From positions 1 to 60,790 of the forward strand of contig KN832912.1 of NCBI GenBank assembly GCA_000827325.1: 60,790 nt of DNA, given 5' to 3'. The first letter of the stretch is position 1; each line of letters starts with the position of its first letter. Origin of the DNA: Oidiodendron maius Zn. Its lineage: Eukaryota; Ascomycota; Leotiomycetes; Myxotrichaceae. This document shows positions 31,994-55,555 of this stretch, in pieces. The notes under the pieces were generated by a model that saw only the letters and a list, made by a program, of their open reading frames with translations, was not told where the DNA came from and did no database searches. A program made the translations under genes and the position numbers.

Positions 31994-33815
31994 CCGCCGT
32001 TGGAAGTGCAAATCGAGCGTACTTTGCCCACACACCTAATAGAGGAAAATCCCACGGGAAGAGATAGACGCGCAGAATAAGGCTATATAGTTCATCAGAA
32101 TAACAATCAAATTAGGGCCCAGTTTGCAAAGTCTTAGTACCCGCTACTTGACCCCGCGAATCCACTTTACAGACATTTAGGCCCTGTTCGCAAACACAAT
32201 CAAGCCTTGATTGACTATCCTCGATTGACACCTCCATTGCATTTTCAATGGGACCTCTATTGAATCGCGAAAATGACGCTAGTGATAGATGACTAAGGGG
32301 CGCATAGAAGCAGCCTATCTCGCGTTTTGGTCTTGCCTCCTTCATTCCTGACCCTTTCTGCCCACCCTTCCTTATTAATGACTCAATTAATATGCCTCCA
32401 CGAAAGAGACCTAAGATTAGAGCTATAGCTACAGCTTCAAACGATACAATTGAGGTTGATGTACAACCGGCATGCTCTCAAGAGTCGACTCCCGACCCGT
32501 TTCCGAATTAATTGGAGACGTGGAGAGAGGGTAGACTGCCTGAGCGTCAGCCATCTGGCTCGGGGCAGAAAGGACCCCAATGTTCTACATAGTCTTCTAC
32601 TGATACAGAACAATAAAAGGATTAATAATAACAACAATAATAATAGCATATAAGCCCCCTCCTGGCGAAGGACCGCTGTAAAATTTGTATGGCGCACAGA
32701 CCATCTACTATAGTAAGCCCCTCTGAGAAGGTCTTTTGTCTCGCACAGGCCACATATGGGGGCTTATATGCTAGTTTATATGGAACTGTATTTCCGATAC
32801 CGGCAGCCTGCCCTCTATGCTAACAATAGATTATCCAGCTGAGCCTGCTCCTGTTGGGTTAAAGGGGCTCTAACCAAGGCTCTGTGGCTTCTGGATCAGT
32901 CCCCTGGATTGTAATCCATTAGTTTCCTCAGTCAATAATCTACACCATTTTAGATAGACAGGAAGAGATTGAATCCACGAGTTGCAACTCAGCCATCGAT
33001 TTGCTGGTATGTATTCATCGAATCTCATGTCACTGAGCGCGCCGTAGCCCTAATCAACCTTGATGAAAGATTTCAGGAGACACAGATCTTGCGTCAGAAC
33101 CGCTTAAAATATTAGTACGTTATGGAAGAGTTGCATAGCGAAAGGTGAAGCGGATCACGAGGTAAGATCAACCAAACGCCATCACGGCAGCAATCCTGAT
33201 CCTCAGCATGTCAACAAGCACACAGCCTCAACATAGCCTTGCGTCGCACGTATCTACGCGGCATCTGTCCAGCTACGGCACGCTACGAGATGGGTCCTCT
33301 TTTAGGAGGCATGGCACTGAAGGAAGGTTGAGGTACCACCCGCCCGTCATTAGGTAAGTCAATATCGGCGTCTTGGAGCATTGTTCCCGGCTCGTACTAC
33401 CACGCACCCTCTCACGCACCCTTCCTAATTGTAACAGTACCTTTATGAATCACAATAACTGTATGAGATATGTATAGCAGCATTCGCCACAAACTCATCT
33501 CGAAGGTAAGGACGTCAATGTACATTCGTTTCCGGGCTGGATTATAGGATTTTGATCGCATTACCTGTGCCTAAGCCTCGAGTTAATCAGCCTCAAGTCC
33601 TTCAGGAACCGCTCCTGAACATTCTAGGCATCCTCTTTACAGCTCGCATCTTCTTATTCTCCAGCAAGAGGAGAAAATGTATAAGTAATGGCCAACAGCC
33701 CACTATTTTACTCCTCTATTCTCATCATCACCCCCTCAATAACCACTAACATTGTCTCAACTCAACGCTTCAACTATCTTCAAGACAACCGGCCCGGCTC
33801 CATCAAATAGCAAAA
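31994..33815. other. Long intergenic region with an inverted repeat
   Basis: No gene I can support. A short ATG reading MPPRKRPKIRAIATASNDTI (about 32393) looks like the start of a transposon protein and soon stops. The area 33000-33120 has weak coding character. An inverted repeat is listed separately. Confidence 0.35.
32645..32772. repeat. 15-bp perfect inverted repeat
   Basis: AGCATATAAGCCCCC (32645-32659) and GGGGGCTTATATGCT (32758-32772) are perfect reverse complements around 98 bp. Just upstream is a simple AAT/AAC run. It could be a very small MITE or a hairpin; no target duplication is evident. Confidence 0.7.
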
Positions 33816-34307
33816 ATGGTTGCCTTCACTACCGCCTCCGCAGTCACCATAGTTGCCTTTTGTGCCATAATTGAACCCACACTTGCTGGCCCTGTCGCCG
33901 CTGCTGCCCGGGTCGCTGGGAGCGTAGCCAGTGTCGCTGATGCAGTGGGCGGCAAGAAAGGCCACAAGCGCGATGCTTCTCCTGAGACGCAGATAGATGT
34001 ACTCTTTGAGCCTTGTTTCGAAAGCTCCAGACAGAATCCACCAACCGTGAAGTACGACGTAGAGAAGAAGGAAGGTGACATACTCCACCTTGATAACCTC
34101 TGCATGGACGCTTTCAGAAAATACAACAAGATGTTCGACTCCAGCGATCTGGGGCACGCAACTGTCAAGGAAATTAGTCCAAATGCAGTTCATGTATCAG
34201 ACATCCCCTCCAAGTTCTTGGAGGATTTAGAGAGAAACTTTGGTAGGAAGGGCAACTCAGGTGGGGCTCATTCCACCGCTGGTCCTGCCGCCCAGCCAGT
34301 GAACTAG
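33816..34307 (+). CDS. Small secreted protein, unknown function
   Basis: Single exon, 163 residues. Residues 1-24 are a signal peptide (VAFTTASAVTIVAFCAIIEP, then TLAG). An Ala/Val-rich stretch and a Lys-Arg site (KKGHKR) follow, suggesting Kex2 processing before DASPETQIDVLFEPCFESS. The mature part is charged with only two cysteines. No family recognised. It lies directly beside the large AT-rich block, a common place for fungal effector-like genes. Confidence 0.75.
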   Translation: MVAFTTASAVTIVAFCAIIEPTLAGPVAAAARVAGSVASVADAVGGKKGHKRDASPETQIDVLFEPCFESSRQNPPTVKYDVEKKEGDILHLDNLCMDAFRKYNKMFDSSDLGHATVKEISPNAVHVSDIPSKFLEDLERNFGRKGNSGGAHSTAGPAAQPVN

Positions 34308-34790
34308 ATATTTCTTCTAGCTTTGTACGCGCGGCTTAGGTATTCTCAAGTGCTTTGTTGGTGTCTCATTTCTGTATGCTCTAGGAAGGCATTTTCCAGC
34401 GTTTATAGGATGGGCTCTCTAGTGGAGGCCCTAAAAGTTCCTCCCATTGTTTTACTTGTACAATACATCGCTGCAGGATATGCTTCGCGTTGCGTTTAAG
34501 GGTTTCTGGCTATAGGAGCAAAACATTTGTTGATTTAGAACACAATCCAATTGATTCCAAAATACTCTTCCCTTGAATCCCAAGCGACTTGATAAAAATG
34601 TTGTTGCAGTTGAAAATTTCTACAAAGCTCACTTCTGGCAAAGAAGTACAACCACTGCTTCGCCGATAGCTCAAGAGTTCAGCATCATCGCCTCCTGAAG
34701 TAGAATACTGTGGCGATAATATACCATTTGCCTAGCTCAGTCCAACGATCCAGGCGTTAGTGCTAGCCTGCTAGAATGTCTACTACTAGT
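34308..34790. other. 3' flank of secreted protein, no gene seen
   Basis: Non-coding; changes into AT-rich DNA at about 34780. Confidence 0.4.
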
Positions 34791-36142
34791 AAACTACTAC
34801 TAATTTAAATATATTTATTATAAACTATATTTATTTACTTTCTAAAGTAATAGTTAATAGTATTACTAGATTTAAATAATATATTATTATAAAAGTTAAA
34901 ATTATTAATAAGACTTTATTACTATATTTATAGTATATAATTATTAAGATTATAATAGATAATATATTATAAATATAATAAGTATATATTAAAGCTATAT
35001 TAAAGATAGATTAATAAAGAGAGTAATATAATATATAGCTTTAATCTAATATAAAAAATAGTAAAGATTATTAAGCTAATATAAGACTTTAAATATATCT
35101 ATATATATAATATAGTTATCTATTAAACTATCTACTAATATTTATAAAGTAACTAAATAGAAGTCTATTTAATAACTTAATTAAATATATAGTATTAAGT
35201 ATAAAAGGCTTTAATTCTTCTAAATCTCTTTTTACTTTAGTTATTTCTATATTACTTAATATAATACTAAATTTCACTTTAATTTCTAACTATAATCTAT
35301 ATACTATATAATCTTAGTTTAAGAGATTATAAGTCTAGCTATCTTAGAATAATTAGAATTATAGACTTAACTTAATACTATTACTCTATTTATTTATAAT
35401 ATTAATTAATTAAAGTTTATTTTATTTCTCTATATCTATATAACTAAAGAAGGAAAAGAACTATAAAAACTAAAAGAATAATATAACTTTACTTTTAAAG
35501 TTAAAGAAATTAGATAAATATATCTAGTTTAAAGATATTAGTAATATTAATAATTCTAAATCTAAAGAGTTAAAGAAAAAGAAAATAAAGTAAAAGATAG
35601 TTTATTATAAATAAAGAATTATAATTTCTAAAAGATAAATAAGACTTTAAATAAATATTAGAATTATAAAAAGGTTTATTATTAAACTTCTAGAAAGTCT
35701 AGACTATAAAAGATTAAAGAGATATTATAAAGTAAATAAAGTAAGAAATAAAAGGAAATAAGAGTTATTATTAATTATATTAAAGCTTTAAGTATATATA
35801 TTATAATATCTTAAATTAATAGTAATATATATAATAGTATTATAACTATATAGTTATAAAAGCTTATATATACTATTATCTAAATAGATATATAATAAGT
35901 ATTATATTCTATAGTCTAATAACTTTAGTTATCTCTATATTACTTAATATAATACTAAGTTTTATCTTGATTTTTAACTATAATCTATATATCTATATAA
36001 CTTTAATTAAAGAGTTATTATAAAAGAAAGGAAATATATATATAATATTATAATAACTATAATATAATAGATTATAATATATAAATATATTAAATTATAA
36101 TAAAGACTTTAGAAAAAGATAATTTCAAATAAATTAAAAAAT
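34791..36142. repeat. AT-rich, RIP-like block (left of gap)
   Basis: Almost pure A/T, TA-rich, no open frames, interrupted by an assembly gap. Same character as the block at 1-1720. Confidence 0.85.
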
Positions 36143-36312
36143 NNNNNNNNNNNNNNNNNNNNNNNNNNNNNNNNNNNNNNNNNNNNNNNNNNNNNNNNNN
36201 NNNNNNNNNNNNNNNNNNNNNNNNNNNNNNNNNNNNNNNNNNNNNNNNNNNNNNNNNNNNNNNNNNNNNNNNNNNNNNNNNNNNNNNNNNNNNNNNNNNN
36301 NNNNNNNNNNNN
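36143..36312. other. Assembly gap (170 N)
   Basis: Run of N inside the AT-rich block. True length unknown. Confidence 0.99.
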
Positions 36313-36790
36313 TAATATTATTTAATAGAATTATTATAGTTTTTATAAAATACTAAGGAAACTTTTATATATTTACTTGTTTTATATATTTACTATATAT
36401 TAATATTACTTTAAAATCTAATATCTTAACTAAAAATTATAGAGTTAATTTCTTAAGAAAATAGAATACTTTTAGTCCTTTAAGTAATTAAACTATCTAG
36501 AGCTATTAATCTCTACTATATTATAAAGGTCTATAATATACCTTATATTATATTATATAATCAGAGCTATAGAATACTTATAGTAAAGAAGGAAGAGGAA
36601 ACTATATAATAATATAGCTTCCTTTTTCTCTTTTTTCTTTACTTTAATCAATATAATTATTCTAGTCTATATACTTTAACCTTTTATATATACTATATTA
36701 ACCTCTTAAAAACTATTATATATAGAGATATATAACAAGTCTAATATAACTATGTACTGGAATATAGACATAATATAATCGTTGGTAAAT
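36313..36790. repeat. AT-rich, RIP-like block (right of gap)
   Basis: Continues the AT-rich block; composition becomes normal at about 36785. Confidence 0.8.
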
Positions 36791-37848
36791 AGGCTTGTTT
36801 ATACTCCATATGCCTGCTATAGTAGAGTCGCGCTAGCTATAAAGCACAATGAACGAAGCCTAGGGCAGCTGCAGTAAAGAGCCATTAAACTGCCAGTCCA
36901 AACCGATACCAGGAAGCAGAAGTGGTCGAATCGTAGTTGCTTACTTAATCTAACTAATCTGGGTGTAAAGAGGCTTTTTCTTGAGAGGTCAACGCAGTGT
37001 ATGCGAAAGGTGGAAGCATATGGGCTGAAACGATTGTATTGATTGAAGTAAAGTAGGAAGAGGAAGCTGTGTGGCAACACAGCTTCTCTATATCCTTGGC
37101 CATCCCTAGCTACTGCTGGAATGTGTATTAATACTAATATAAGGTGCCAATTGCCCTGCGTCGCACTCATCACATTACATTCCTGAGATACGTCTCCCTG
37201 ACTAGACAGGTCCGTACGACGCATCCGCTGTGCCCAGTGATTGTCGAGAGCTGTCATTATCCAGAACTCTCAACACCTCCTAATATTATTACCCACACTG
37301 TATTCGTGGGTGGTACGGAATATATACGGTAGTTTTGGGCTTATATGAGAAAGGGAGTTTCCACTGGGTGGTGTTGTTATACAGAATACTGGTATGCTCA
37401 GTGCAAGTCCGTGGATGGTCGTTGGGAAAAGTCTCCCTCTTGAACCTGCCTGCTTGAGGGACACTATGTGGATGCATTCCTGTGCTAACTAGGAAAGGAA
37501 GGCCTACATTCTAGTATTACATACTAGTAGTTGCCCTATACCTGGGCCGTTGAATTAACGAGTCCGGTCGCTGGGACTTTTGTACATGTGGGTTCATACT
37601 GCCTCCATATCTCCATATATCTGAATATAACTGTTTGTATCACCCGGTGGGAATCGTAACACCTTCAACCAGTATATGGTAAAAGTGTATTGATTCCTTG
37701 CTCTATCTAAAAATGTATGTACAATAGGTTATAACTTGTGTTGGACAAGAGATGAAACCGGAATAAGACGACTAAGTGGTGTTGTCATATGACCATATTC
37801 AGCGGATTCATACAATAACTATGTTTATTTGAATGCCAGCAGATCCAG
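36791..37848. other. Intergenic region, no gene seen
   Basis: Short random-looking ORFs only. The right part is the presumed 3' flank of the acyl-CoA ligase. Confidence 0.4.
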
Positions 37849-39835
37849 TCAATCCATAGCATTTAGTAACTGAATTCCAAGTTCTTTCAACTTATACTTC
37901 TCAATCTTTCCACTAGCAGTAAGGGGCATCTGCTCTATCCAGAATACATATTTTGGGACCAGCATCTTTGGCAGTCTTTCTTGGACCCAGCTTTGGATTC
38001 GTTCTTTACTAACAGTAAGCTCCCGGGAAGTGTGGGTATCTTGAATGTTGTTAGATTCGATGCCGCGGAAGCCGTCTTTAAGAATAACAAATGCCGAAAC
38101 AACTTCTCCGTATTTTGGATCAGGCAACCCAACAACGCTCGCGTTGGAAATCACACTATCCTGGAGAAGAACGTTCTCAATCTCTGGAGGGTAAATATTT
38201 TCTCCGCCGCGGATAATGATGTCCTTTATCCTTCCCGTGATACGTATGTACCCATCAGGCTGGAACAATGCCTCATCCCCAGATCGTAACCAGACTTGCT
38301 TTGACCCATCTTTTCTCTCTTCCACTATTAAAGCCTCTGAAGTTCGTCTCTCATCTCTCCAGTAACCTCCCATAACGCAGTAGCCAGATATGAGAAGCTC
38401 CCCCTTGTCACCTCTCCGAAGCGTTCGCGTGGGATCGCCCCAAGCCACAATTCTCGCTGATGTGTGGGGGATCATGCGGCCAACAGTGGTAAGTTTCTGC
38501 TCCTGGGTATCTGTCGACGCCGTCTGGCAAATTATTGGAGAACTTTCGGTCAAGCCATAACAATTGGTTAGACCTGCAAGGTGAAGATTATCGTGTAGAG
38601 CGAGTCGCAAGGAAGCAGGGATCGGGCTCCCTCCAATAACACCAGTGCGAAGATGTTCAAAATCTCCAGCCGTCAGAGAATATTTTGCTATGTGCTCGAG
38701 CTCCGCCAGAAACATTGTGGGGACTCCATACAGTGCCGTGGGGCGATCTTGACGAATCGACCTGACCACAGCTGCTGCATCGAAGGCTTCGGATGGGAAG
38801 ATTATGCATGCTCCTATAACAGTTGTCAGCTGATCTACGCCCGAAGGATCCAATAGAGAGCAAAGTGCCACATACCCCATGCCATTGTAGCTATGATTCC
38901 CAGCACAAGGCCAAAACAATGGTATAACGGTGGTGGACAACACACGATATCCAGCTCTGTCAGCTCCATACCCAAGCCAACGAAGATTCCGTTATTTAAT
39001 ACATTTCTATGCGTCAAACATGCAGCTTTTGGACTTGAAGTTGTGCCCGAGGTGAACTGTATAGTTGCGTAATCACTATTCTTGATCTTATTCTCAACTG
39101 GCAACCTCATGCCTTGGTAGGAGGACAGGAGCTCTTCATACCTAGCACTAACTTCAAATTCATGTCCGTGATGCGCACCAGTAGAATTATCAACGAGCAG
39201 TGAAACTAAATCGCCTCGCTCAGCCTCTCGGAGGACAGTGGATAGAAGGGCCCCAGCGGACTTCGGCTCCCTATGAGGTAATATGATGTCTGAACTTAGA
39301 ACATAACACTTCGCTGACACGTGGTTCAACGCTGCAACGACTTGAACCGAAGTATACGCAGGATTTAATGGCGTCACGATGGCCCCAACCTTGAAGCAGG
39401 CATACGATATCTGACCCGCGGATTAATACGCAATGTCTCCTAAACGTAGCGAACTTACCACAGCATTAGCAATGCAGTTTCCTAGACTAATTGCTACACG
39501 ATCCCCAGCGGAAACACCAAGATCCAAGAGCCCCAATCCTAACGCGTCGCTGCATTGATCCAGTTCCTTGTAAGAGAGCTGAGAAGCAGCATCTTTGATT
39601 GCCGCTCTTGCAGGAAACCTTGTGGTTATCTCTGCAAATTTCTGACCCAGCGTCTGTTCGGATAATTGTGGCTACTCGAATTCAGCAAGCCACGTGAAAC
39701 AACGTCCAGAATACCCACTTCGTTTGGGCCTGCGAGGTAGGCCAATTCTGCGCTGGAGTCAGACATTTGTGTCCGGTACGAGCTCGCATGCAGCTCACGC
39801 ATGTAGCTTTTAGACCTTTGCGTAGTAAGGAGCAT
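37849..39835 (-). CDS. Acyl-CoA synthetase / AMP-dependent ligase
   Basis: Four exons (39701-39835, 39459-39653, 38876-39410, 37849-38813; introns 47, 48 and 62 nt) give about 609 residues. The ANL-family motifs are complete: TIQFTSGTTSSPKAACLTHR (ATP-binding P-loop), YGLTESSPI (A5), SGDEALFQPDGYIRITGRIK (A7/A8 with Asp and Arg), GGENIYPPEIE, and SGKIEKYKLKEL with the catalytic Lys near the C-terminus. It would activate a carboxylic acid, probably medium or long chain, to acyl-AMP and acyl-CoA. The protein ends NAMD, so no C-terminal peroxisomal SKL signal. The N-terminal exon could start at internal methionines (MRELH or MSDSS). It may supply an acyl donor to the BAHD acyltransferase of the same neighbourhood, which is inference. 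Confidence 0.9.
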
Positions 39836-41015: not shown

Positions 41016-41851
41016 CTATCTCTTTTGAGTGATATTTGTAGAACTCACACGACTTTTACACCTATGCTCCACACCATATCCGTCAATAACCAACATTGTT
41101 TCCGTTGAATCTTCACTCAAACCCTCAAGAGTCAGATCACTCTGGCACGAAATTGTCTGTCGAAGGTAATCAAAGCAGTGCATCAAATGGTGTAGTTTCT
41201 TTGCATACTCTTCTTGGATTCCATTGCCGTAGACGTCAGTGCCAACAAAAAGGCTCTCGTTCCGGATGAGCCTGTAAAATTCTTGTCGGAGAGATTTCTT
41301 CATTTCATCAGCCTCTAACTTGAATACAGGAGAGGGAGTAACCGACAAGACAATGATGCTGATGACCCCACGTGGTAATGTAAACCTCGTCTGAACTGTT
41401 GTGTGCGGGAATCCCGAGAGGTAAGGTGCAAGACCGTGGGTTTTCAATTTGTACCCATCCAGTTATGCCAGGGATACTTGTGCTCCATAGAAGATCGGTT
41501 TCTGCATTCGAACCAATTTCCCAAGATTTATTTCGATCTATCAGGACATTCTCGATTTGAACTACATAGGTGAAATCAGCTTAGGTTTGTTTATTGTCTT
41601 GAATGAGGCTTACAATCTGAATGATGGAGTGACGCTAAATTCAGTGTCCTAAACATATGGAGTAATATGACACCTTGAAAAGTATTGGCAAGACAGAGGA
41701 TTCCAATAATCAAATAGAGCACAGTAAATTGCTTCACTCGCTCTTGAGCCGTTTTCGTCTCCGAGTTCTGATAGTTTTCAGCATCCTGAGGCAAGAAAGC
41801 TTTGGACGCTTCTGCGTCTAGGACTTCAGAAGCAGATAGCCATTCCACCAT
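41016..41851 (-). CDS. UstYa-like (DUF3328) oxidase-family protein
   Basis: Three exons (41614-41851, 41343-41561, 41016-41281; introns 52 and 61 nt) give 240 residues. One transmembrane segment (FTVLYLIIGILCLANTFQGV) near the N-terminus anchors the protein. Two Cys/His motifs follow: GHQHYCLVEFYRLI (146-150) and HHLMHCFDYLRQTISC (184-188). UstYa-family proteins carry two HxxHC motifs and oxidise or cyclise RiPP and other natural products. Here the second motif is intact, but in the first the fourth position is Tyr (HQHYC instead of HQLHC), so the usual second His is missing or shifted. The second intron restores frame and uses a CTGAT branch site. Likely part of the metabolite locus. Confidence 0.8.
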
Positions 41852-43560
41852 TATGGGTTTAGCCTTAAGGATACACTCCGACTGAGATAATAAAGTCTAT
41901 ACAACTTCAGACTAAACTGCCAGTGTTAACAAAGTTGAATAAGGTGGCGTAGAAGCCCAAGGAGTACAGAGGATGCCTTTCTACTTCGGAGTCGACGACT
42001 GTTGAAACCCCCAAGGCTGAGGATGCATATGGAGCATCGTAACACCTTGACCATTATTAGCTAAATTTAGGTCTTAGTGGTAGTACGTAAAACTATCGAC
42101 GAGGATTGAACGGATTTGAGAGATTTCAAGGGTTGGGAGTTGTGCGAGACTCAGACGAGTTAGCGGTAAGGAGTACTTGCAGCGAGGGAAATATACCCCT
42201 ACCCTCTCAGCTGATCGGTTTATACAAAATGACCCGCTAGTTGTCGTCTTGGTGTCCTCGTCGTCACGCGCCATCCAGACGGCGGGCAATCTTAAAATGG
42301 GCAGCTTTACTGATTTTTCATTTTCTGGGGACACAAGAGCTGTTGGTTGCTTATAGCTGAGACTTGCGGAGCAGATCTATATCCCAGGTAGTGAATCATG
42401 AATTCATCTTCCACACGCTTCAATATTGCATTTCCCTATCGGAGTCTTTGGCATGGATGCCAGCGGACGCCTCACATGTAATTAACGCTCTCCAAACGTG
42501 GGAAAGGGTCGCACTTGCTATTGTAATCAAAGCCTCAGTGTAACTACCCTATATGTGCCGCAATTTTTGTGCCGTGTGAAATTACGCAGTCTTTAGAATG
42601 TGTTTGGCCGACAAGTGATGTGGAATATTTGCAGGAGGTTACGGATAAACCAACATGTGAGATCCCGCCATGTGGCCCAGGAAAGCTTTTTGGCCTCGTG
42701 CTGATGCCGGTGCCCAAAATGTTGTGTAACTTTCGACGAAGTACCCCGGACAAAATATACGGAGCGTTGCGGACCGCGTGTCTAGGTTAGCAATTGCTCG
42801 GCTGTAAAATTAAGGCTTATTGGCAGTATTGACTACGGAAGTGGTAACCACTTCTTTCAGGCTGTAATATTCAATACTGAATTAGGGCTAGACTTGTAGG
42901 GTACGAAATCGAGGATTACATGCCCCACAAAACCTAGCTAGCTATATCCTAAACTATTCTCGCATCTGGACCCCTGTAGTAGGTTTGGTATATATGAGTT
43001 GAGCCTAGGACCAGCAGCTATTGCCGACCTCGCATTGAGATCCTTATATTGGGATAAGAGATATAATATGACTATGGTTCGTACTATTGAGCAGTCGGAG
43101 CTTGGCGGAGGGTAAGAACCTTTTGCCATGGTGAGCTCGCTGGTTTATGGAACTCCGAGATTTGCTGGCCCATCTTATTGCTCGCCTTGATACCACTGCA
43201 TTGGGATAAGCGCAACTGCATCGGGGATCTTGGCGGGTCATAATCCCCTTGATTCGTTCCTTCCAAATTTCAATCTGACGATATGCTCCTTCATACAGTA
43301 TGCACCCCGGATTCCGAATTGGCCCAATGGGCTGTAATTCTGAGGCTTGTGTGGATATTGGAGGGTATTCAAACTCATTGCACCGTCGTAACTTTGCCTT
43401 GGCGGGAAAGGCAAATAACTTCGCCTGAGGCCCTTAGTAGGAGAAGACTCGCTCCGCTATTACGAATAGAATGAAATTATTATAGATTTACTACTATCTC
43501 TCTTTACCCATGTTCGGTCTTTGCGCAGAGTCGTTTGTTGAGGATTTTGAAATGCTAGAC
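41852..43560. other. Intergenic region, no gene supported
   Basis: Some ORFs of 60-90 codons on both strands (for example 42074-42334 reverse and 42569-42790 forward) have no recognisable features. Upstream region of the cysteine-rich peptide at the right. Confidence 0.4.
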
Positions 43561-43567
43561 AGGGAGG

Positions 43568-43576
43568 TATAAAAAG
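43568..43576 (+). promoter_or_regulatory. TATA box of the cysteine-rich peptide gene
   Basis: TATAAAAAG about 135 bp before the start codon at 43712, followed by a pyrimidine-rich stretch. Confidence 0.6.
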
Positions 43577-43711
43577 CCCCATCTCCTGATCAGCACTGAT
43601 ATTTCTCTCCATCAAGGAGCTTCATGGACTTCGGCATTCTACCGCTGCTCCCAAACGCTGCGTTCAAGTTTGTCCAACAATCCGGTACCAACGGGAAGTC
43701 CCAAGTCAGAA

Positions 43712-44005
43712 ATGTTGTTCCTTCACAAGCTTGTTGCCCTCACCACTCTGATCGTCGCCGTTGCGGCTGGCCCCAACGTGGATTCGGTCGAGACTTCAGC
43801 TCCAGTCGAATACAACAGCTATATAACCTCTCTGGACCCCGACGTCCTTACTGCCGGTATCTTCCAAAGAGAAACGTGTGGTGGCTGCTGCCATTATGTC
43901 TGTCACGTCATACCAGGTATTGGTAGTCCCAGCACTTGCACTTGCACGTACAAGTCACCATGTAATAAGGGATCCTGCGACCCACAAACTTGTTGCTCAT
44001 GGTGA
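43712..44005 (+). CDS. Small secreted cysteine-rich peptide precursor
   Basis: Single exon of 97 residues. The start at 43712 gives an ideal signal peptide (MLFLHKLVALTTLIVAVAAG); an upstream in-frame ATG at 43670 would spoil it. A pro-region of about 30 residues follows, then a C-terminal domain with ten cysteines in 45 residues, including adjacent pairs (GGCCHYVC, TCTCTY, QTCCSW). Five disulfides are possible. This is the build of small secreted antimicrobial, toxin-like or effector proteins; I do not recognise the fold family. It sits between the UstYa-like gene and the P450, but its extracellular nature makes a direct enzymatic role in the cluster unlikely. Confidence 0.75.
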   Translation: MLFLHKLVALTTLIVAVAAGPNVDSVETSAPVEYNSYITSLDPDVLTAGIFQRETCGGCCHYVCHVIPGIGSPSTCTCTYKSPCNKGSCDPQTCCSW

Positions 44006-45884
44006 TTACAGCAGAGGCAAGAGGCATGTTAAGGCTATCTGAAGGATGCAGAGGAACGTGTGTCGAGTATGAGGTTGTAAGGGGATTGATGTTCATCCTG
44101 ATTTTGTTTTCTTTTTAAAGAACTAAGTTGCTACGTCACTATCATTATTCTCTGGTTAAGGAAGAGGAAGAGTCTAGTTCATCTCAAAACATACGAAGCA
44201 AATATTCATATAAATTTTGCGGCGATTTACTAACTTGCCACTACTTTGTATCCACTTATCACGGATACCACAATATCCATCATCACTTTACTAACTTACC
44301 ACCCTTTGCATAAATCAATGGTATTGTAGTAATATTATGATGTAATCGGTGGTATTGCAATAAAAACTTCCTTGCACCAAAAAGCTACCTTGAAAACTAA
44401 TCTACTGCTATCCCCCCTGCTTTTGTCTTCGAGTTGATTGAATTATTCGCTTTACTTTAGCCAGAATGTTGAAATTCAAGCTAATATTCCCTACTAATTA
44501 TTCCCTCGAGTTGATCGCCTAATTAGAGCAGGAGGTGAATTACAAGCTCATCTTGATCTGAAGCCTACGAGGAAAGTAAGCAGTGTAGTGTACACTGTCA
44601 TAGTGATGATAATGAGTGTGGGAACGTCTCAGGTCTAGCTACTAGTACGGAAATACCTCTAGTAGATAGGCCTAGGAGAAAGCGGGCTAGGGCCAACACA
44701 GCAGGAAATAATTTCTAGATGAATTCAGTATATTCCTGGTTCTACACCACTATTCTATTTGCGGGTGGTATAAGTGGATCGAACCATTCGCGATATGTTC
44801 ATGGGTGGGTCGGAACATATATGAGATATTTGATGATTTTTCAATGACGTGGGCACTTAATTTACGTCATTGCCGAGGAAGGATATTGCGGCAATAGAGT
44901 TGGATCGCTGCCGGGGCTTTCAACGATTAATGCGCGTTGTATCTATGCCTTCACAGTAGTGGCCAGTCTCAAGATACCTTGGGGTTGCGTCTGTGCAAGA
45001 TATCCGGAAGATTAATTTGCGGATCAGTCGTCCTAACGCCATATCTAGTTAGATCGAAGGCGACGCTGACACTGCTCGCTTACATTCGCCACCCACGTCG
45101 CACTTATATTGCAAGGAGCGACATAGATGCAAGACCTCGGGTTCGTATCACAATCCTTGCATAGCCGTAAAGCAGTTAAGCCAATTCTATTAGTCTGAGA
45201 TTTTACAATAGTGAACTATCAGGCCTTATTTGTGAGGCTATCCAAACTGCTCTCCACTTCCATTGTTGTCAGAATATTGCAAATAATCTACAATAATGAT
45301 ATGGGAACAAGGTTAAACCTTTGTTTTGGATTGCTATAAGAGTTAAGACTAGTACCGCTTTTACAGCCACAATGGATGTCATTCAAATGGAGAATAAGAA
45401 TGCCTTTTTGTATTTAAAGGATATAGATAGAAAGCTCTAGACTCGGGCATATGCTCCATATCTTCTAGAAAGTATGGTATGGTCACATATCTTGATCGGA
45501 GGTCTGGTAATTCACAGGTCGTAGTCGGATATCAAGGTGAAACTCAGTTATATTGACTATTGAGTGATGCAGAGACAACTATTGAGCTTAGATACGCTAG
45601 AGTAAGGGACCCTTTTATATAGACCTATTCGGCCTCTTACTGACTCATATGAATCCTCTGAATCCTGGATCCTGAATCCTGAGGGACGTATAATATGTGC
45701 TTGAGGTCCTAGTCAATAAGATATATAGCAAAGCGTAATTGGCTAATATCTCATATACCCTTAAAATCAGTATAGGTAAGTAACTAAACGTATAAAGGCT
45801 ATTCTATGCAGCTATATATAATACTGCTTGGCTGCTCTCTTACGTACGGGCCCTGAAACCCATTCCTCTAGCCCGCCTTGCTTG
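44006..45884. other. Intergenic region with repeat fragments
   Basis: No intact gene. A degraded transposon-like reading (LIRAGGELQAHLDLKP at about 44512) is too short to assign. Repeated words ACTTTACTAACTTRCCAC occur twice around 44224-44300. A weak SUR-repeat copy is listed separately. Confidence 0.35.
45122..45215 (-). repeat. SUR dispersed repeat, degenerate copy 3
   Basis: Contains ATGCAAGACCTCGGGTTCG, then CACAATCCTTGCATAGCCGT and GCAGTTAAGCCAATTCT. It aligns in order with the reverse complement of the copy at 52.2 kb and with part of the 9.4-9.6 kb region. Confidence 0.5.
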
Positions 45885-47722
45885 CTAAACCTCCCTTTTC
45901 TTTAAAGTAATGAGGAACCTGCCGCAGGGCTCATCAAGCGTTACCTTGCGAACGTTTTCAGGCCGCTTCTCCAGCCGCACAAAGTCGTAATCCAGAAGCA
46001 GATGCGCAAGCGTCAACTTGAGCAAATTGCTCGTAAAGAATCGGCCCGGGCACGCCCCACGTCCAAGTCCAAAGTTGAGAAAGTTGGGGGAAATGTCCGT
46101 CATCTTGGGATGCTCCGGGTCGTCCATGGACCGGCGTGGGTTAAAGCCGCCTGGGTAAGCTTTGTCGTCTCGTTGGTATGCCTTGATCGGGGCGGCAAGT
46201 ATTGCTCCCTGTGGAATATGGGTTCCGTTGGAAAAGGTGAAGCCGCCCTTCTTTCCCACAGCTCGCTCGATCCCAGTTTCGCCTATGGGGTTGTAGCGAA
46301 TGCTTTCACGGATCAGCGAGTCCATAAGGTCGAGTCGTTGAAAGAAGTTGTGTGAAAAGCCATCGCCTTTGTCCATTTCCCTTTTGATCTCTGCCCGTAG
46401 GTCACCTATCATGTCCTCGAAATCTCCTTCTGGCAACGAGATGAGGTCGTACACCAGATTCGTCATTGTGACAAGATTGGTATACGATTGGACAAAGTTC
46501 AAGACCATCATTCTTGCCACAATGACCATAGGGTCGTATTCCGTTGTCGCATTGCCATCCCTTTTCGCTGCGATAATGATTGCGCTCAACATGTCATTCT
46601 GAAAATATGTCAACTTGGATGCTGTTTATAGCGAAAGTCGATGTCTCGATACTCACTGGCAACTCTGGCTCGATGTCCTTTTCTTCAGCGGCATCGATAA
46701 TAGCCATCCGTTCCTTGATGACGGGCGTTGCATGCTTGGCTGCCGTCTTGAGACATCTCATCAGTGGCCGGCACATGAGAGGCAGTAGGAGCCTAAAGAG
46801 TGACAAACTCAGCAAAGAACGGCAGCGGCCAATCGTGGTTGAAAGAAGAGAAGAAGGGATTATGGAACATACTTACGGGCGGAGAAATGGGGGGATAAAG
46901 CGGGCGTACAAGGCCGACGCGAAGAACGTGGCAGCGTACTGCGCCGTGGCATCTTGATACTCCTGGTTGTGACATAGAGAATGGCCCGAGATGATGCGAT
47001 TCGCAGACCGGCCCAAAATGCGGTTTGCCGTATCCCACATATTGATTGCTGCCTCTCCATTCGCCCCGACCTTTGATGCAACAGCGTCGTCAAGGGCAGC
47101 TGTCATTTCCTCGTTGACCATGTCCATCTTGTCCGCAAGCTTCTGGTATAACTCTCTGTGCACGACATTCCTATAAACCGGGTGTATTACGATGTGTGCC
47201 CCCAGCGTTGTATAGTCCGGCACAAGGGTCTGCAACGTATATCTCTTCAGCGAGATGTCGTTCTCGGACTGGCGGACGTATTCGTTGAGCAGCTGCTTCG
47301 GCACCATGAGCATGAATCCCGTGCTGCAGTGCGGGATCGGAACTAGATGAATATTGCCATCGGTGGCTCCGAGAATCTATTGCAACGAGGTGCGCCCACG
47401 TCAGAGACTCTGAGCCTTACTTGGGTTCTGTTTCTTGGAGTCACCTTACCGTGCGGTGGATTTCTGCAAAAAGCTCTCCAGACCTGAACGCAACATCCCA
47501 TGTTGACTTCATGAATGAGCCAACACCTTTTCTCCTACTAACCCAGCTGAAGCTTCGATATTTGGGCGAGAGCGCAGCTTCTATGGCGGGGTGCATCAGA
47601 TGGTACGCCCATGCTACCCAGGTTCCAAAAATTGCATATAATACGATGCGAGGCAGAAGAGCCTGGAGCCAAAACGCGAGTCCAAGTTCCATTGTGGTAA
47701 CGGTCGTTTCAGGGCTAGCCAC
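45885..47722 (-). CDS. Cytochrome P450, ent-kaurene-oxidase-like
   Basis: Four exons (47450-47722, 46877-47376, 46657-46792, 45885-46598; introns 73, 84 and 58 nt) give 540 residues with perfect phase. An N-terminal anchor (ALLPRIVLYAIFGTWVAWAY) precedes a start-of-domain segment. Later come the I-helix region LNFVQSYTNLVTMTNLVYDL (which lacks the usual AGxDT and instead resembles the fungal ent-kaurene oxidase/GA14-type P450s), ExxR as ESIR (401-404), and the heme loop FGLGRGACPGRFF with ligand Cys486. Such P450s often perform multi-step oxidation of terpenoid carbons. It is transcribed divergently from the UbiA gene with about 780 bp between them, suggesting co-regulation and a shared pathway. 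Confidence 0.92.
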
Positions 47723-48504
47723 AAAAACTTTGAAGTTGCTACGAGGAAGTTTGGCCTTTTAGCGACGTAAAATGCATGGCCTAATGTTGAAATCGCTTTC
47801 GGTCGTCGGTAACAGAAGTTCCATGGCACAAGCCCATGCGCCCCCAACCCCCATGCAACCACACAAACTGTAGGATGCAACTTTTGTAACGTCAGAGCTA
47901 GGTCGTTCTTGATCGCTGCACCATGTAGCCTTATTTAGCCAATGGGTTGAGGAGAAACCTTGCAGCCGGATGCTGCACGCGAGCGGCGGGTTCAGCAACT
48001 AGTTTTGCCCCTCCTGCGAGGAAAATGCCTGATTGATGAAGTCTTCCCACTGCAGAACCACGCTAATTTCAGCAGTAGGTACGGACTTTCCAAAGTACAA
48101 GCGGATGAAGCTGATAGTTGTACTATCCCCCCCACCCCCCCATGTTAATTGTACATACTCCGCATTGTGACTTAGCTTACTCTAACTGGTAAGAGAAATG
48201 TTATGATCCGTGCATCCTATCGTTACTCAGGAAATCTGCTCCGTTTACTTTCCTTAGTTAGGCCGTCTTAGCCACAGAAAGTGGAGTATTTCAATTAACA
48301 TGGGTGGGGTGGAGGGGAGTGGATAGTATTATGCTGACAGATGGCGGGTGGTAGGTGGTAGATGGTAGATGGGTTCGTGCCCCAGGGCACGAACCCATAG
48401 AAATAGCTTCCACGGAGGCGTGTCTCATATGAATTACAATCCGCTTCTAATGCCCGCCTCTCTGTCGTGGGATCAAATACGCCCATTCTCGATGGTCTCC
48501 CTAT
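47723..48504. promoter_or_regulatory. Divergent promoter, P450 and UbiA
   Basis: About 780 bp between two divergent genes of the presumed cluster. It contains a C-run at about 48126-48141, GGTAGATGG-type repeats at 48345-48370, and a long palindrome (listed separately). No supported ORF. Confidence 0.5.
48369..48398. promoter_or_regulatory. 30-bp near-perfect palindrome
   Basis: ATGGGTTCGTGCCC, two bases CA, then GGGCACGAACCCAT: 14-bp arms with a 2-base centre. About 110-165 bp upstream of the UbiA start. It could be a dimeric transcription-factor site or an mRNA/DNA hairpin. Confidence 0.7.
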
Positions 48505-49565
48505 TTGGGATATTGGACTTACACATCGGCCAACATGTCATACCCAAGCACATTTTACAGTCTTGGCTTGATGCCCGCCTTCATGGGCCTGGGTCATCTT
48601 GCACCAGCAATAGGTGCCATACAGACAGCTACTGGCTCGTACCAGTTTCCCGGTAAACTTCTTGGGCTTATTGGTACGATCTCGGCTGTTGTGGACTGTA
48701 CGTGAATGACCGAAGAGTCCTACTGCGCCCGTGCCTTATTAGATTGTTTATTGATGATTGTATTTTATAGCGATGGACACGTATAAGGACGTTCCACAGT
48801 CAAATAGACCTTCAAAATGGATTTGGAAAACATGGGTCTATGGGTTGTGGGCTATCGTGTTTGCATGCACTGCCATGTTGGACTTGCACACAGCGTACCA
48901 TATATATCGAGTCTTGCCTCTGGGTCTGCTTTGGGGTGTTCCTTGCATCCCGCAATTCTCAACGTCAAAAAGTCTGGTACTAACTAAGCCGAAAATCTTG
49001 GTACGTTCCATGCCAGAGCGTCCGAATTAACAACTAACCATTAAACATCGTACAGCTCGCTGAGGCGAAATCGCTCGTTGTAGCGTTGTGCATGGCCAGC
49101 GTCTGTGCGGACGCAAGCATGGTTTACTACTGCCGTCAAGATGAATCTCGGTGTACCCACATAAGGCTCCGCACAAGAAGCTTTTACCTCACGATTTTGT
49201 ATCAATTCTTTCGAGAAACGTCCTGCGACATCAGGGACATGGCTGAGGATGCCAAAGAGGGCCTGAAAACACTGCCTATAAAACTTGGGAAGCAAAAGAC
49301 CATGCTGTTCATGACGGTCGTGGGTCTGTTACTGGACTCGATTTTAACGGACAGTGTACATATCACGGCTAGCGATATCCTCGTGCGTTCTCCGCAACTT
49401 GCCCAAGCATTTCTTCGAGTAGGATTGACAATGACTGCTCACTGGCAAGTCTTGAAGTATCCCAGGCAGAACTGTTGGGCTTGGGGATTCATGTCACTCT
49501 TTGGCCTTCTTCCTGTACTATTTGCACAAGCGGCCTTATGCTTACGCACTGATGAGGAAGCTTGA
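48505..49565 (+). CDS. UbiA-type prenyltransferase / terpene cyclase
   Basis: Three exons (48505-48697, 48771-49000, 49056-49565) give 310 residues, or 300 from the alternative MSYPSTFYS start at 48535. The first Asp-rich motif, DSMDTYKDVPQSNRP (from residue 64), is built across the first splice junction; the family form is NDxxDxxxD, so Asn is replaced by Val here. The second Asp-rich motif is RETSCDIRDMAEDAKEG (first Asp about 199), followed by LKTLPIKLG. Several hydrophobic segments lie around them. UbiA enzymes bind prenyl diphosphate with Mg2+ through these motifs. They prenylate aromatic acceptors, or in the fumagillin type cyclise farnesyl diphosphate. No aromatic-acceptor synthase is in the window, so a cyclase role is possible (inference). 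Next to a P450 and a BAHD transferase. Confidence 0.85.
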
Positions 49566-49908
49566 CGAAGCTAGACGGTGGGGTGGGGTCAGCTTGTTGT
49601 GGTAAATAACGGAGGAATATAGAATTAAATGACTGCTGATATATCTAAGAATAGAATAAAGTAACCATGGCGTCTCCAAACTAATAATGTACTGTGTCAA
49701 CTTACGCCCTCAGCCGGCATTTATTAGAGGAGCCGATGCCCGGTATCCTCACTTCATTCAGCGCCCCAAATCAAGCTTAAACCACCTTATTAACGTATGT
49801 GCACGGCAGCATATTCTGGTTGTTCTGCACATAAATAAAAGCAAAGACCTGTGGTCATATATGATGGAACTGGAGTCTGCGTCGCGTCGCATATGTCCAC
49901 CAAGGCAT
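49566..49908. other. Convergent intergenic region, UbiA and BAHD
   Basis: About 340 bp between convergent 3' ends; no gene seen. Confidence 0.5.
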
Positions 49909-51482
49909 TTACCCAAATTGCTCTAGATAATCCATCAAATATGACCACATCCCCCCAGGCAAGGAAATCGAGAACCAAGTGTTGCCGTCGTAGTCCCGCC
50001 CGACGACAACAAAAACGTTTGATATGACCGAGACAGTATTGTGGGCTGGGTCAGAACCTTGGAAGTACACGGGATGTCCTGGTTTGCTCCGCGAGCCCCC
50101 ATGAGCTGCAGCTCGCACGACAGCTGGACCAAAGTCCATCTTCTCAGCAATTTTACCTTTCGTCCAGTTTGACATGAATTGGGTGGCCATGGTCTTATCA
50201 CCAAAGATGACGGGCATCTTGGTCGTCTTCATGGACTCGGCAGAAAGGGATGCGGTCACCTTTAGCTGTTCTTCAGTAGCCTGAGTTGCTACAGCCTTAC
50301 GCACTAAGAGAGCTAGCTTTCCCAGGGGCAGCTCGAGGGCCTGGTTCGCGCGGTAGAAGAAGTAGATGTTCGTTGGCGAGTTTTGAACGTACGCTGCGTC
50401 TCGATTGAAAACTGACGTGACGCGACTTCGAGGGTCCACGGCCATGATTGTCGCCAACTGCCGCGTAGAGCTGTGACCCTGATGTTGCGCCAGCATGTGG
50501 CAAGCCACAGCCGCTAAAACGTCCCCTTCGCTGATGAAAGGCTTAGACGCTGGATCTGAAGCAGTAGTAGCATCGGCTTTGACCTCAATATGACTTCTAG
50601 CTTCTTGAACCATCCTCTCCATAGCGTGCTTGGGGATACACAAGGTGCGGGACTCACTCGGGTTGCGCCACGACTCGTACAAGCTGCGCAAACCCCAATA
50701 TTTAAAGCCCCAGCCGTCGAGCACCTTGTCCGCCAGAATGTGCCGTTGCTTGGGTTTCGGGTTCCACATAGCGTCAAAAGGATCTTCGCGATAGCCCAGC
50801 ATAGGAGCCACGGCTTCCGGCTTGCCGGCAAGGATGAGGCTCCATGCTTCGAGTATTGAGGTCCATCCCATCAAGTCGGTTGATATGTGAGTGTGCGTGA
50901 GAGAGACGAGAGTGCCGTCTGTAAATGTCTGGACATGAAGACAGAATTGGGGCTTGCCGGAAGAGACGAACTCATCTATATTGCGGGGCGTCCCAGGGCC
51001 AAGTCCAAGAGAGCAAAGCACTTTGGGGCTCGTATACGTAGCAATCTTGCCCGTTGACAGGGGCAGCTGGGAGGCCAGCGGGTGCTCCGTCATGGGGATA
51101 TCATGGTGTTTTTTGGTATAATACACGGCCGGACGCTCCTCTGAACATTCATGCGGGACGTGTATCTCTAAACTTCCGTCTGGCTACAGCCCGAATTAGT
51201 AGGCAAGCGGGGGTGAAGAAGGTGCTGTTAACTTGCCCGATACCTGAATCTTCCACTAAACCTTCGCCACCCATCCATCCGAAAGAGCTGCGATAAAGCA
51301 GTATGGAGCTTGTCGGGATCGAGGATATCGTCAAACTTATATATCCACACCATAACTATGCCACGCGCTGCCGCGGAGTCGTCAAACAGGTGCACAGGGA
51401 TGATATCATCCGTTTCAGTAGTTTCTGGTCGCGCTGGCTGCTCATTCTTGAAGAATGGCAGATAGGCAAGCGGATTCAACAT
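49909..51482 (-). CDS. BAHD-type acyltransferase
   Basis: Two exons (51233-51482, 49909-51179; 53-nt intron with GTTAAC donor and CAG acceptor) give 506 residues and produce GRFRYRANGSLEIHVP across the junction, as in related proteins. The catalytic HxxxD motif is HTHISTDLMGW (His181, Asp185). A later DFG (MDFGPAVVRAAAHGG) fits the place of the structural DFGWG motif in shortened form. BAHD/trichothecene-acetyltransferase-like enzymes move an acyl group from CoA to a hydroxyl or amine. With the P450 supplying hydroxyls and the acyl-CoA ligase supplying CoA esters, an acylated product is plausible. The exact acyl donor cannot be read. Confidence 0.85.
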
Positions 51483-52779: not shown

Positions 52780-54581
52780 ATGCATTTCTCTAACTTTGCT
52801 CTTGTGTTTTCTCTTTTCTTTGCGGCAATGGCTTTTGCAGCCCCAATCGCGCCACACGAACATGTAATCATCGAAGAAACTGAGAAGAGAGTAAGTAATG
52901 AAATATTGTACTGGGCAATTTACATGTTGCTAATAGAAGCAGGGTAAGTTACCATCTGACCGTGCTGTGAGTGGCTGACTTGGTGTTGTCGATGGCTAAT
53001 ATTGAATGTCTGCTATAATAGGGTAAGTAATCATCTGACGGTGCTGTGAGCGACTGACTTTGTGTTATCGACGGCTAATATTGAATGTCTGATGTAATAG
53101 GGTAAGCTATCCTCTGGCGGCGCTGTGAGCGGCTGAATTGGTGTTCTCGGTGGCTAATGTTCAATGTCTGGTATTCTAGCGTAAGTTATCCTCTGGCGGT
53201 GCTGTAAGCGGCTGACTTGATGTTGTCGATGGTTAATATTGATTGTCTTGTGTAATAGTGTAAGTTATCCTCTGACGGTGCTGTTGGCGGCTGACTTAGT
53301 ATTATCGATGGCTAATATTGAATGTCGGGTTCAATAGAGTAAGTTATCCTCCAACGGTGCTGTGGGCGGCTGATTTGGTGTTCTCGGTAGCTGATATCGA
53401 TTGTCGTGTGTAATAGAGTAAGTTACTATCTGGCGGTGCTGTGAGCGGCTGACTTGGTGTTGTTGATGGCTGATATTGAATGTCTTGTGTAATAGAGTAA
53501 GTTATCTTCTGACGGTGCTGTGGGCGGCTGACTTGGTGTTGTCGATGATTATTATTGACTGTCTTGTGCAATAGTGTAAGCAAACCTCCGAAGGTGCTGT
53601 GAGCGGCTGACGTGGTATTATCGGTGGCTAATATTCAATGCCGGATGTTCTAGCGTAAGTTATCCTCTGACGTGCTGTGAGCGGCTGACTTGGCATCATC
53701 GATGGCTAATATTCAACGTCGGGAGTTCTAGCGTAGGTTATCCTCTGACGGTGCTGTGAGCGGCTGACTTAGTGTTTATTGATGGCTGATCTTGAATTTC
53801 TGGTGCAATAGTGTAAGTTATCCTCTGACGATGCTGTGAGCGGCTGAATTGGTGTTATAGATGGGTAATATTGAATGTCTTGTGGAATAGGGTAAGCTAT
53901 CTTCTAACCGTAGTATAAGCGACTGGATTGGTGTTGTCGATGGCTAATATCTAATTTATGGTGCAATAGTGTAAGTTATCTGTGAGCGGCTAGCTTGGTA
54001 TTATCGATAGCTAATATTGATTATCTTGTATAATAGTGTAAGTTATCCTCTGACGGTGCTGTGGACGGCTGACTTAGTATTATCGATGGCTAATATTGAA
54101 TGTCGGGTTCAATAGTGTAAGTTATCCTCTGATAGTGCTGTGAGCGGCTAAATTGATGTTCTTGATCGCTAATATTGAATATCTGGTGTTCTAGCGTAAG
54201 TTAATATCTGACGGTGCTGTAAGCGGCTGACTAGGTGTTATTTATGGCTGATATCGAATTTCTGGTGTATTAGTGTAAGTTATCCTCTGACGACCCTGTG
54301 AGTAGTTGACTTGGTGTTATCGACAGCTAATATAAAGTGTCTTATATATAGAGTTAGTTATCCTCTAACGGTACTGTAAGCTGTACCTTGATGTTTTCGA
54401 TGGTTAATATCGAATGTCCTGTGTAATAGGTCTGGCGATGTGGGTGGTCTATACGTTGAAGACAATATGTGTTCATGGGGTGGAATATCTTAGCCTTGGT
54501 GTGGTTTTCCTACTGGGTTTTCCCACACCTTTGTGCAAATGCAAAGGTTATCTTCTGATGAATCTTTCTTGCTTTATTTGA
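52780..54581 (+). CDS. Secreted peptide gene with tandem 1-nt exons
   Basis: Exon 1 (52780-52890) is exactly 37 codons: a signal peptide (MHFSNFALVFSLFFAAMAFA) and a short pro-region ending EETEKR, a Kex2-type Lys-Arg at the exon end. A 52-nt intron (52891-52942, GTAAGT...CAG) follows, then 19 single-nucleotide exons separated by 19 intron-like units, then a last exon from 54430. The single bases in order are GGGCTAAATCCTGTTTCTA, which translate as Gly-Leu-Asn-Pro-Val-Ser plus one base completing Ser with the last exon. The frame stays open to a TGA at 54579-54581, total 93 residues. One base more would instead give a 20-codon end with SGDVGGLYVEDNMCSWGGIS and a TAG at 54491; two more or one fewer would stop after 9 codons. 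The pre-pro layout resembles pheromone or RiPP precursors. Sequence pattern is seen; splicing is inferred. Confidence 0.6.
52944..54429 (+). repeat. Tandem array of 19 intron-like units
   Basis: Units are 78 nt (14 of 19), with 77, 77, 77, 79 and 66 nt variants. Each begins GTAAG (17 of 19; GTAGG in unit 11, GTTAG in unit 19), has a branch-like CTAAT/CTGAT about 20-25 nt before the end (15 of 19) and ends TAG (19 of 19). Single spacer bases lie before each unit at 52943, 53022, 53101, 53180, 53259, 53338, 53417, 53496, 53575, 53654, 53732, 53812, 53891, 53970, 54037, 54116, 54195, 54274 and 54352. Spacers are G4, C4, A4, T7. Units 3/13, 4/14, 5/15 and 7/17 pair by special shared variants (5 and 15 differ at only two positions), so a ten-unit block seems to have been duplicated. 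Indels are not multiples of three, which speaks against a coding minisatellite. Confidence 0.9.
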
Positions 54582-54923
54582 GCCCATCTTTGAAATCGTG
54601 GAGGTGATATATAATATTGCCAATTGCTCGCGTAAGAAGGCTTTAGGATATCCGTGTTCATCATTGGTTTTCTATGCTATAATCTACGGCAATTTACTAA
54701 GACCGACCCTACATTCGTGAAAATATGAAAAACCGACCTTTCAGGGTATTAGAGTAGCTGACTGTGGCACCCTATAATAAATAGGTACCTTCTAATTGGT
54801 CTATCTACTAGTATAAACTTAAGTACCCCTACATAAACAACGCGTCGCGTTATTTAGATTATTATCACCACCCTTTCAACCACCCTTTCAACCACCCTTT
54901 CAACTACCTTTTCAACCACTGCA
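54582..54923. other. 3' flank of array gene and MULE 5' part
   Basis: Non-coding. At 54868-54915 a 12-13-bp tandem repeat (CCACCCTTTCAA, about four copies) precedes the MULE-like ATG, comparable to a C/T-rich stretch before the first MULE copy. Confidence 0.45.
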
Positions 54924-55555
54924 ATGGAGTCAATTGAGTCAACTAAGGATCAATGGACCTCCCCTACATCTTCTGATATCTTATCTAAGTCTTGGGCAAC
55001 TCTTCTAGAGGCAAAGAAAGCAGCCAAAGTCTGGATACTCGACCGTGGCGAATCCTGGGCTCCTACAGACCAGAATAATAAACATCGCCTTCAATTATAC
55101 TGCCTCCTTCTAACCTGTGCTTTTAAGGTTCGAGTTGCACAAAAGAAACACTTCTTTAGGATTATATTATATACTCTATACGATTGTACTCCCTCAACAC
55201 ATGTAAAGTTTAAACAACATCACTCTGTATAGTATCTTGTAGCCTTTCTTGAATGCGATATTGAGATTAATCGATTTATTAAGCTAAAAGAGATTCAAGA
55301 ACAAGCTAGTTCATATCATCAATTACCCTACCTGCTATATCAGCCAGCTTGGAGGGTAAGAGAGCGACTTCGTGACCAGATTAACGGAGATGAGGGCACA
55401 ACCTTTAGTCTAATCCCTGATTGGATCAATCGTCTAAAAGAAGTAGATAATTCAATATATATCAACCTTTAGAAGATACAAGACAATCGATTTGAAGCCT
55501 TTGTTTGTTATGCTTGGATCAATTAGATCAAGGTTAGTTTTAACTTAATCATATT
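54924..55555 (+). pseudogene. Mutator-like transposase, degenerate copy 2
   Basis: ATG at 54924 begins MESIESTKDQWTSPTSSDIL, followed by AKKAAKVWILDRGESWAPTD; the copy at 13.5 kb has the same start in damaged form. After a stop, YHQLPYLLYQPAWRVRERLR and GDEGTTFSLIPDWINRLKEV align with the 13.8-kb copy (MPAWRARERLNNILDGDEGT). It ends before the DDE-bearing part, so it is a 5' fragment. Confidence 0.75.

Follow-up and report, generated by a model that had tools for sequence, protein, structure and literature searches.

The window analysed here, which is the whole of contig C43 (60,790 nucleotides, in a genome of 45.9 Mb and 58 contigs), contains at positions 52891–54429 a run of 20 consecutive intron-like units, one of 52 nt followed by 19 that are related to one another. 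At 19/19 junctions neighbouring units were separated by exactly one base, in the arrangement AG-N-GT. We give somewhat better than an even chance to this being a gene for a small secreted peptide that has undergone tandem amplification of an intron plus one exon base, such that part of the coding sequence behind a Lys-Arg pair would consist of 19 one-base exons. The features of the array were as follows:

52780–52890, forward strand: exon 1, 37 codons (MHFSNFALVFSLFFAAMAFAAPIAPHEHVIIEETEKR), with its ATG at 52780, ending in Glu-Lys-Arg in phase 0
52891–52942, forward strand: first intron-like unit, 52 nt, GTAAGT...CTAAT...CAG
52944–54429, forward strand: 19 related tandem intron-like units, each GT(A/T)(A/G)G...TAG
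52943–54352, forward strand: the 19 single bases, G G G C T A A A T C C T G T T T C T A
Single bases 1–10, forward strand: 52943, 53022, 53101, 53180, 53259, 53338, 53417, 53496, 53575 and 53654
Single bases 11–19, forward strand: 53732, 53812, 53891, 53970, 54037, 54116, 54195, 54274 and 54352

All 20 units began with GT(A/T)(A/G)G and ended with (C/T)AG. Most of the 19 related units were 78 nt long (14 units, with three of 77 nt, one of 79 nt and one of 66 nt), and Tandem Repeats Finder described the family as having a period of 79, 19.0 copies and a score of 1493. The bases between the units read, in order, GGGCTAAATCCTGTTTCTA. A juxtaposed AG/GT, as in a zero-base recursive splice site, was present at 0/19 junctions, with AGGT occurring solely at the end of the last unit (54428–54431). 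An earlier note on this DNA had described 19 tandem units set one base apart; these were recovered by our chain search, and the total rises to 20 with the 52-nt unit at the front, which ends in CAG and had no detectable kinship with the repeat family (212/300 shuffles were as good). A candidate decayed twentieth repeat at 54430–54492 was rejected, as 298/300 shuffles were as good. The end of exon 1, at 52890 after Lys-Arg and in phase 0, was also where the note had placed it, while the signal peptide that it had named is a reading by eye of a signal-peptide-like start.

The array as observed was confirmed and lies far beyond chance. The chain finder, which linked introns of 45–120 nt running from GTRAG, GTTAG or GTAGG to YAG, with no branch rule and with exons of exactly 1 nt, returned a single chain of 20 in the window, matching the array exactly. 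No chain of at least three was found with 1-nt exons in 200 kb of contig C14 or in the sequences L007, L033 and L034, and the two UstYa-rich stretches among these, L033 and L034, contained no chain. With the window included, the search covered about 284 kb, or 0.6% of the genome. When exons of 1–12 nt were allowed, with a minimum of five introns, the same chain of 20 was found and nothing else. Ten local shuffles of the window plus 200 kb (261 kb), searched on both strands, gave 4 chains of three and none longer. In a version of the search that required a branch motif, the array was recovered as two chains, with 13 and 6 members.

The interiors of the 19 related units are diverged, as had been claimed, but moderately so, with a mean pairwise identity of 79%. 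In all of these diverged units (19/19) GT and AG were unchanged, which bears out the near-invariance of the splice-site bases, and columns G1, T2, G5, T77, A78 and G79 of the unit alignment were invariant. On the unit tree, the 75 columns outside GT/AG averaged 1.9 changes, for which four changeless columns have a Poisson probability of 5e-4; the hypergeometric probability was 0.0026 for GT and AG, and 1e-4 when G5 and T77 were added. The significance of GT/AG is moderate because 19 of the 79 columns were without change. A YTRAY branch motif was located within the last 32 nt of 18/19 units. Unit 8 had lost CTAAT and contained TTGAC, and the CTAAT-like site that the earlier note attributed to every unit failed in unit 12, which had GTAAT only. 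Together, the invariant GT/AG, the YTRAY motif in 18/19 units and a single base more variable than any intron column supported, indirectly, the proposal that the units are individually recognised as introns, or were until recently.

The variability of the single base was evident by several measures. Its entropy was 1.95 bits; the unit columns averaged 0.51 and did not exceed 1.64. Parsimony on the unit tree assigned it 9 changes when it was paired with the preceding unit and 10 when paired with the following one, whereas the unit columns averaged 1.8 and none exceeded 7. Fitting gave the single base a rate 80 times (the upper limit of the grid) or 20 times the average, the next column being at 6, and the test of this rate against the average rate gave 2 delta lnL values of 20 and 31. 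Units 5 and 15 are 97% identical, yet the next base is A in one and T in the other. The bases were accordingly found to vary much as the earlier note had stated (G4 C4 A4 T7, the most variable column), although not entirely freely: the four C bases are exactly those following the four units that end in TTCTAG, which form one clade. This match has a chance of 1 in 3876 by a hand calculation made after the pattern was seen, and because of it we consider that the single bases travel with their units. As a whole set, the single bases needed 9 changes on the unit tree against 10.5 when shuffled, with 15% of 2000 permutations as low. The fast change of the single bases would be explained most simply by selection on the peptide favouring or fixing them, and we infer diversifying selection. 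A mutational hot spot at the junction may instead be the cause.

Exon 1, the 19 bases and 54430–54581 together formed an open frame of 93 aa, in agreement with the earlier note. The open frame is weak evidence, however, because in its three frames the last exon runs for 9, 20 and 49 codons before a stop. Readings without the 19 bases were also obtained: joining exon 1 at 54430 gave EKR-VWRCGWSIR-stop, and with an acceptor at 54492 the reading was likewise open. The candidate features at the 3' end were:

54430–54581, forward strand: last exon according to the earlier note, open to the TGA at 54579–54581 with the 19 bases before it; weak
54493–54557, forward strand: candidate last exon for the case in which the final acceptor is the TTAG that ends at 54492; our own reading of the sequence
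54490–54555, forward strand: 3' block in common with contig C14, 88% over 66 bp to C14:1114346–1114409; hairpin

Based on the similarity to C14 beginning at the TTAG ending at 54492, this TTAG may be the true last acceptor, and the last exon may start at 54493 and not at 54430. In that case the 19 bases and the last exon would read TLVWFSYWVFPHLCANAKVIF-stop. The exact peptide predicted (GLNPVS...) and the boundary of the last exon are uncertain, since the acceptor may differ and the frame hangs on the number of units. The predicted 93-aa product has one Lys-Arg and no repeated core, and no relatives of it were found in the protein collection (two candidates, neither scoring).

The window gene was found to be part of a small family that comprises an array-free member, an array with three-base spacers and the array with one-base spacers, with the 3' block as the link to the second of these. 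In a DNA search of the genome, the counts of which are lower bounds, the matches were the window itself and the 66 bp at 88% on the minus strand of C14 (1114346–1114409). Just upstream of this block lies the second array (C14:1114539–1114884, minus strand; L003 reverse strand 4517–4862), which has five units of 54–72 nt. The C14 units were alike beyond shuffles (the best score was reached by 0, 0, 0, 1 and 0 of 200), and common descent of these units with those of the window was not supported (42 to 124 of 300 shuffles were as good). The C14 spacers are three bases each, TGC, TGT, CCA, ATT and TGC, then TAG, which would translate as Cys Cys Pro Ile Cys stop, and the junctions are CAG-TGC-GTAAGT, TAG-TGT-GTAAGT, TAC-CCA-GTAAGT, CAG-ATT-GTGAGT and TAG-TGC-TAG. 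The C14 locus looks broken as there is no in-frame ATG before its signal-like stretch, its first donor is GTCGGG and one acceptor is TAC. When the exon length was fixed at 3 nt, the chain finder returned no chain of at least three, the C14 array included, because two of its sites are off consensus; a chain of three on C14 at 5-nt exons was taken as chance. The C14 exon-1-like stretch was weakly similar to the others (475 and 248 of 1000 DNA shuffles and 56 and 15 of 2000 protein shuffles were as good), and it is therefore the 3' block that ties this locus to the family.

The array-free member, L007 (C14:869227–869340, minus strand; L007 reverse strand from 1501), was recognised as a related gene: protein identity was 47%, and 0/2000 protein and 0/1000 DNA shuffles were as good as its match to exon 1. 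Unspliced, L007 reads MYISNFILAVSCLAAVAFAAPLTMHEEIAVEPDGCGGR-stop, and a GTTAGT just before the stop could be a donor. Its 3' part fits the three-sequence model of the 3' block, a fit that is expected as the model was built with L007. The stretch after the exon-1-like part of L007 was considered as a single-copy ancestor of the unit and not accepted: 5/300 and 9/300 shuffles were as good, but the unit model, run with filters off, gave no match. A match of L028 to the 3'-block model (E=0.11) was rejected as a fourth member, with nothing array-like seen. No relatives of the three N-termini were found in the protein collection (one candidate, not scoring). The 3' block may be untranslated, because its predicted fold is good at two loci (z -2.7 and -2.3) but not at L007 (z +0.7), and because it has one-base gaps between loci and, in the ungapped stretch compared with L007, has differences spread evenly over codon positions by a by-eye count.

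Of the explanations weighed, the one-base-exon reading ranked first; the way in which the bases vary gives it good grounds, and we hold it to be slightly on the probable side; a secreted peptide encoded one base at a time, as the earlier note proposed, would follow only if the units are spliced singly. Tandem repeats grow through recombination without function, and it is conceivable, if unlikely, that the array is a relic, namely a tandem repeat formed from a copied intron in a gene that is unexpressed or non-functional, with an intron look that is inherited and not maintained. The broken appearance of the similarly designed C14 locus would be in keeping with this, as would the lack of a homologue in the protein collection for the 93-aa product or the N-termini and the p of 0.0026 (hypergeometric) for invariance of GT and AG alone. 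However, passive copying would not be expected to leave GT/AG intact in 19/19 units and a branch motif in 18/19, nor to make the single base change so much faster than every other column.

We regard with still greater doubt the removal of the array as one or a few large introns, from the donor of exon 1 to a distal acceptor, with the inner sites idle or serving as stepping stones and the single bases absent from the mRNA. The skipped reading that joins exon 1 at 54430 is open too, and work on stwintrons describes two adjoining fungal introns removed in one event (PMC12403724). Such an intron would, however, be about 1.5 kb, which is long for a fungus (the F. graminearum median of 56 nt is cited in PMC12940212), and ascomycete splicing is described as proceeding by intron definition (PMC12403724). 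In addition, idle inner sites should decay and intronic bases should not form the most variable column: inside a large intron the single bases would have no reason to be the fastest column, whereas exonic bases under selection would. Quite improbable, in our assessment, is the insertion of intron copies singly between neighbouring bases of an old exon, by reverse splicing or break repair, in which case the 19 bases would not be mutually homologous. On the unit tree, the single bases did come out close to shuffled ones (9 versus 10.5 changes; 15% of 2000), and insertion of introns without target-site duplication has been proposed for fungal stwintrons (PMC8469720, PMC12403724). Against this, 19 events exactly one base apart, with no 0- or 2-base step, would need a targeting rule where tandem duplication needs none, and all four C bases go with one unit clade.

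Under the favoured one-base-exon reading, an intron and one flanking exon base would have been amplified in tandem, and the spliceosome would remove the units in succession, probably cotranscriptionally and in the 5' to 3' direction. With each splicing event the upstream exon would grow by one base and would then be paired, as 5' exon, with the donor that follows. After secretion of the precursor, a Kex2-type protease would cleave it behind Lys-Arg. Each unit gained would be one letter gained, which would then change much faster than its intron. More tentatively, and with a chance that we put well short of even, we speculate that amplified introns may give rise to one-base exons whose bases diversify under selection much faster than the introns do, gain or loss of a copy adding or removing one letter and shifting the downstream frame. 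Intron copy number would on this view be a heritable frame switch, a splicing counterpart of slippage-based phase variation that yields new secreted peptides.

If the gene is spliced as drawn, exons would have shrunk to one base 19 times running, and the 20 spliceosome rounds with one base between sites would put sequential intron definition cleanly to the test. The pattern of variation would mean that selection acts on single bases isolated by introns. Intron amplification could then invent coding sequence. Ordinary gene finders and short-read aligners are probably blind to such a gene, so that others may have been overlooked.

Single one-base exons are already known, and the tandem array is without a match in the literature examined. 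The earlier note referred to a one-nucleotide exon in a plant gene, and a constitutive exon of one base is reported as proven in Arabidopsis APC11 (PMC4674806). For the CYP621A genes of Fusarium, a one-base exon backed by reads from two species was presented by its authors as the first in a fungus (PMC12940212), and there are reports of a placozoan mitochondrial one-base-exon case (PMC5436844) and, in 2024, of a functional microexon in a filamentous fungus (PMC11121469). An array of one-base exons was not found in the open-licence literature among the matches listed. As in the array, the base in APC11 and CYP621A lies between AG and GT; in those two cases it is described as required for the frame and as handled by the ordinary spliceosome (PMC4674806, PMC12940212). 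Each of those genes, which encode conserved enzymes or a cell-cycle subunit, is described with a single exon of this kind and with cDNA or reads to document it, whereas the window would have 19 in a row between related introns.

Stwintrons resemble the array as proposed in being adjoining fungal introns that are spliced consecutively and occur in families of similar introns, but are defined by an internal intron lying inside the donor, branch or acceptor element of an external one (PMC8469720, PMC12403724). In the window, donor and acceptor are complete in all 20 units, and neighbours are set one base apart. The polyubiquitin gene UBC is comparable in that its tandem-repeat boundaries are usable as both 3' and 5' splice sites; its repeats, however, are described as coding monomers at which AG and GT coincide (PMC10809524), whereas in the window it is the putative introns that repeat, and a single base would be the coding part. 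Introners are likewise related introns multiplied within a genome, in Pezizomycotina too, but are scattered over many genes (PMC9860276), in contrast to the head-to-tail copies within one gene of the window. The genome DNA search found no other copy of the unit, whereas introners are similar introns at many places in a genome. Schistosome micro-exons range from several to tens of bases, are mostly symmetrical and are separated by introns that are not known to be tandem copies. The schistosome micro-exon genes produce secreted proteins from very short exons, as the array would (PMC4671649, PMC5825161).

Members of the UstYa family are enzymes of fungal peptide toxins. One stretch of this family was identified in the window:

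41016–41462, reverse strand: UstYa-family open stretch, with its matching part at 41052–41291, 11.5 kb from the array

It is possible that this protein is the maturation enzyme for the array peptide. UstYa-matching stretches numbered 70 genome-wide and were clustered (e.g., C15:922–933 kb and C17:37–46 kb); they occurred 7.5 kb from L007 and 11.5 kb from the window array, and none of the 70 was near the C14 array. As 2% of the genome lies within 12 kb of UstYa, the probability for at least two of the three loci was 0.0012, with a threshold chosen after seeing the distances. The nearby UstYa, the signal-like start and the Lys-Arg together suggest a processed secreted peptide. In these three respects the window gene may resemble the dikaritin precursors processed by Kex2 and UstYa, which are described as typically having several core copies bounded by Kex2 sites (PMC9233826), whereas the predicted 93 aa are without a repeated core.

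The UstYa stretch is part of a cluster-like group at 41016–51482 that also holds a cytochrome P450 (45885–46625), a UbiA-like prenyltransferase (49038–49565, below the Pfam cut-off) and a BAHD-type acyltransferase. The genes of the window look like those of a filamentous ascomycete. The acyltransferase, whose nearest named relatives are from Neonectria, Mariannaea and Fusarium (75–76%), has exons at 49909–51183 and 51237–51482. Its 53-nt intron (51184–51236, minus strand), placed against homologues and used as a yardstick, has CTAAT and TAG and an apparently GC donor, i.e., it is of the GC-AG type. Two further open readings on the forward strand matched no Pfam family: a small, Cys-rich, secreted-looking protein at 43712–44005 (MLFLHKLVALTT...QTCCSW), and a reading at 33750–34307 with a secreted-looking start and Lys-Arg (MVAFTTASAVTI...GHKRDASPETQ). 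The latter adjoins an AT-rich stretch; such stretches, at 1–2000 and 34001–38000, had a GC content of 0.22, 0.26 and 0.31 per 2 kb and the look of mutated repeats. A MULE transposase domain was present at 13637–14629, and a residue run resembling it by eye (STHVKFKQHHSV / STHAKFKQHNSAW) was noted at 54858–55232, 280 bases past the array gene, so that a transposon fragment may adjoin the latter.
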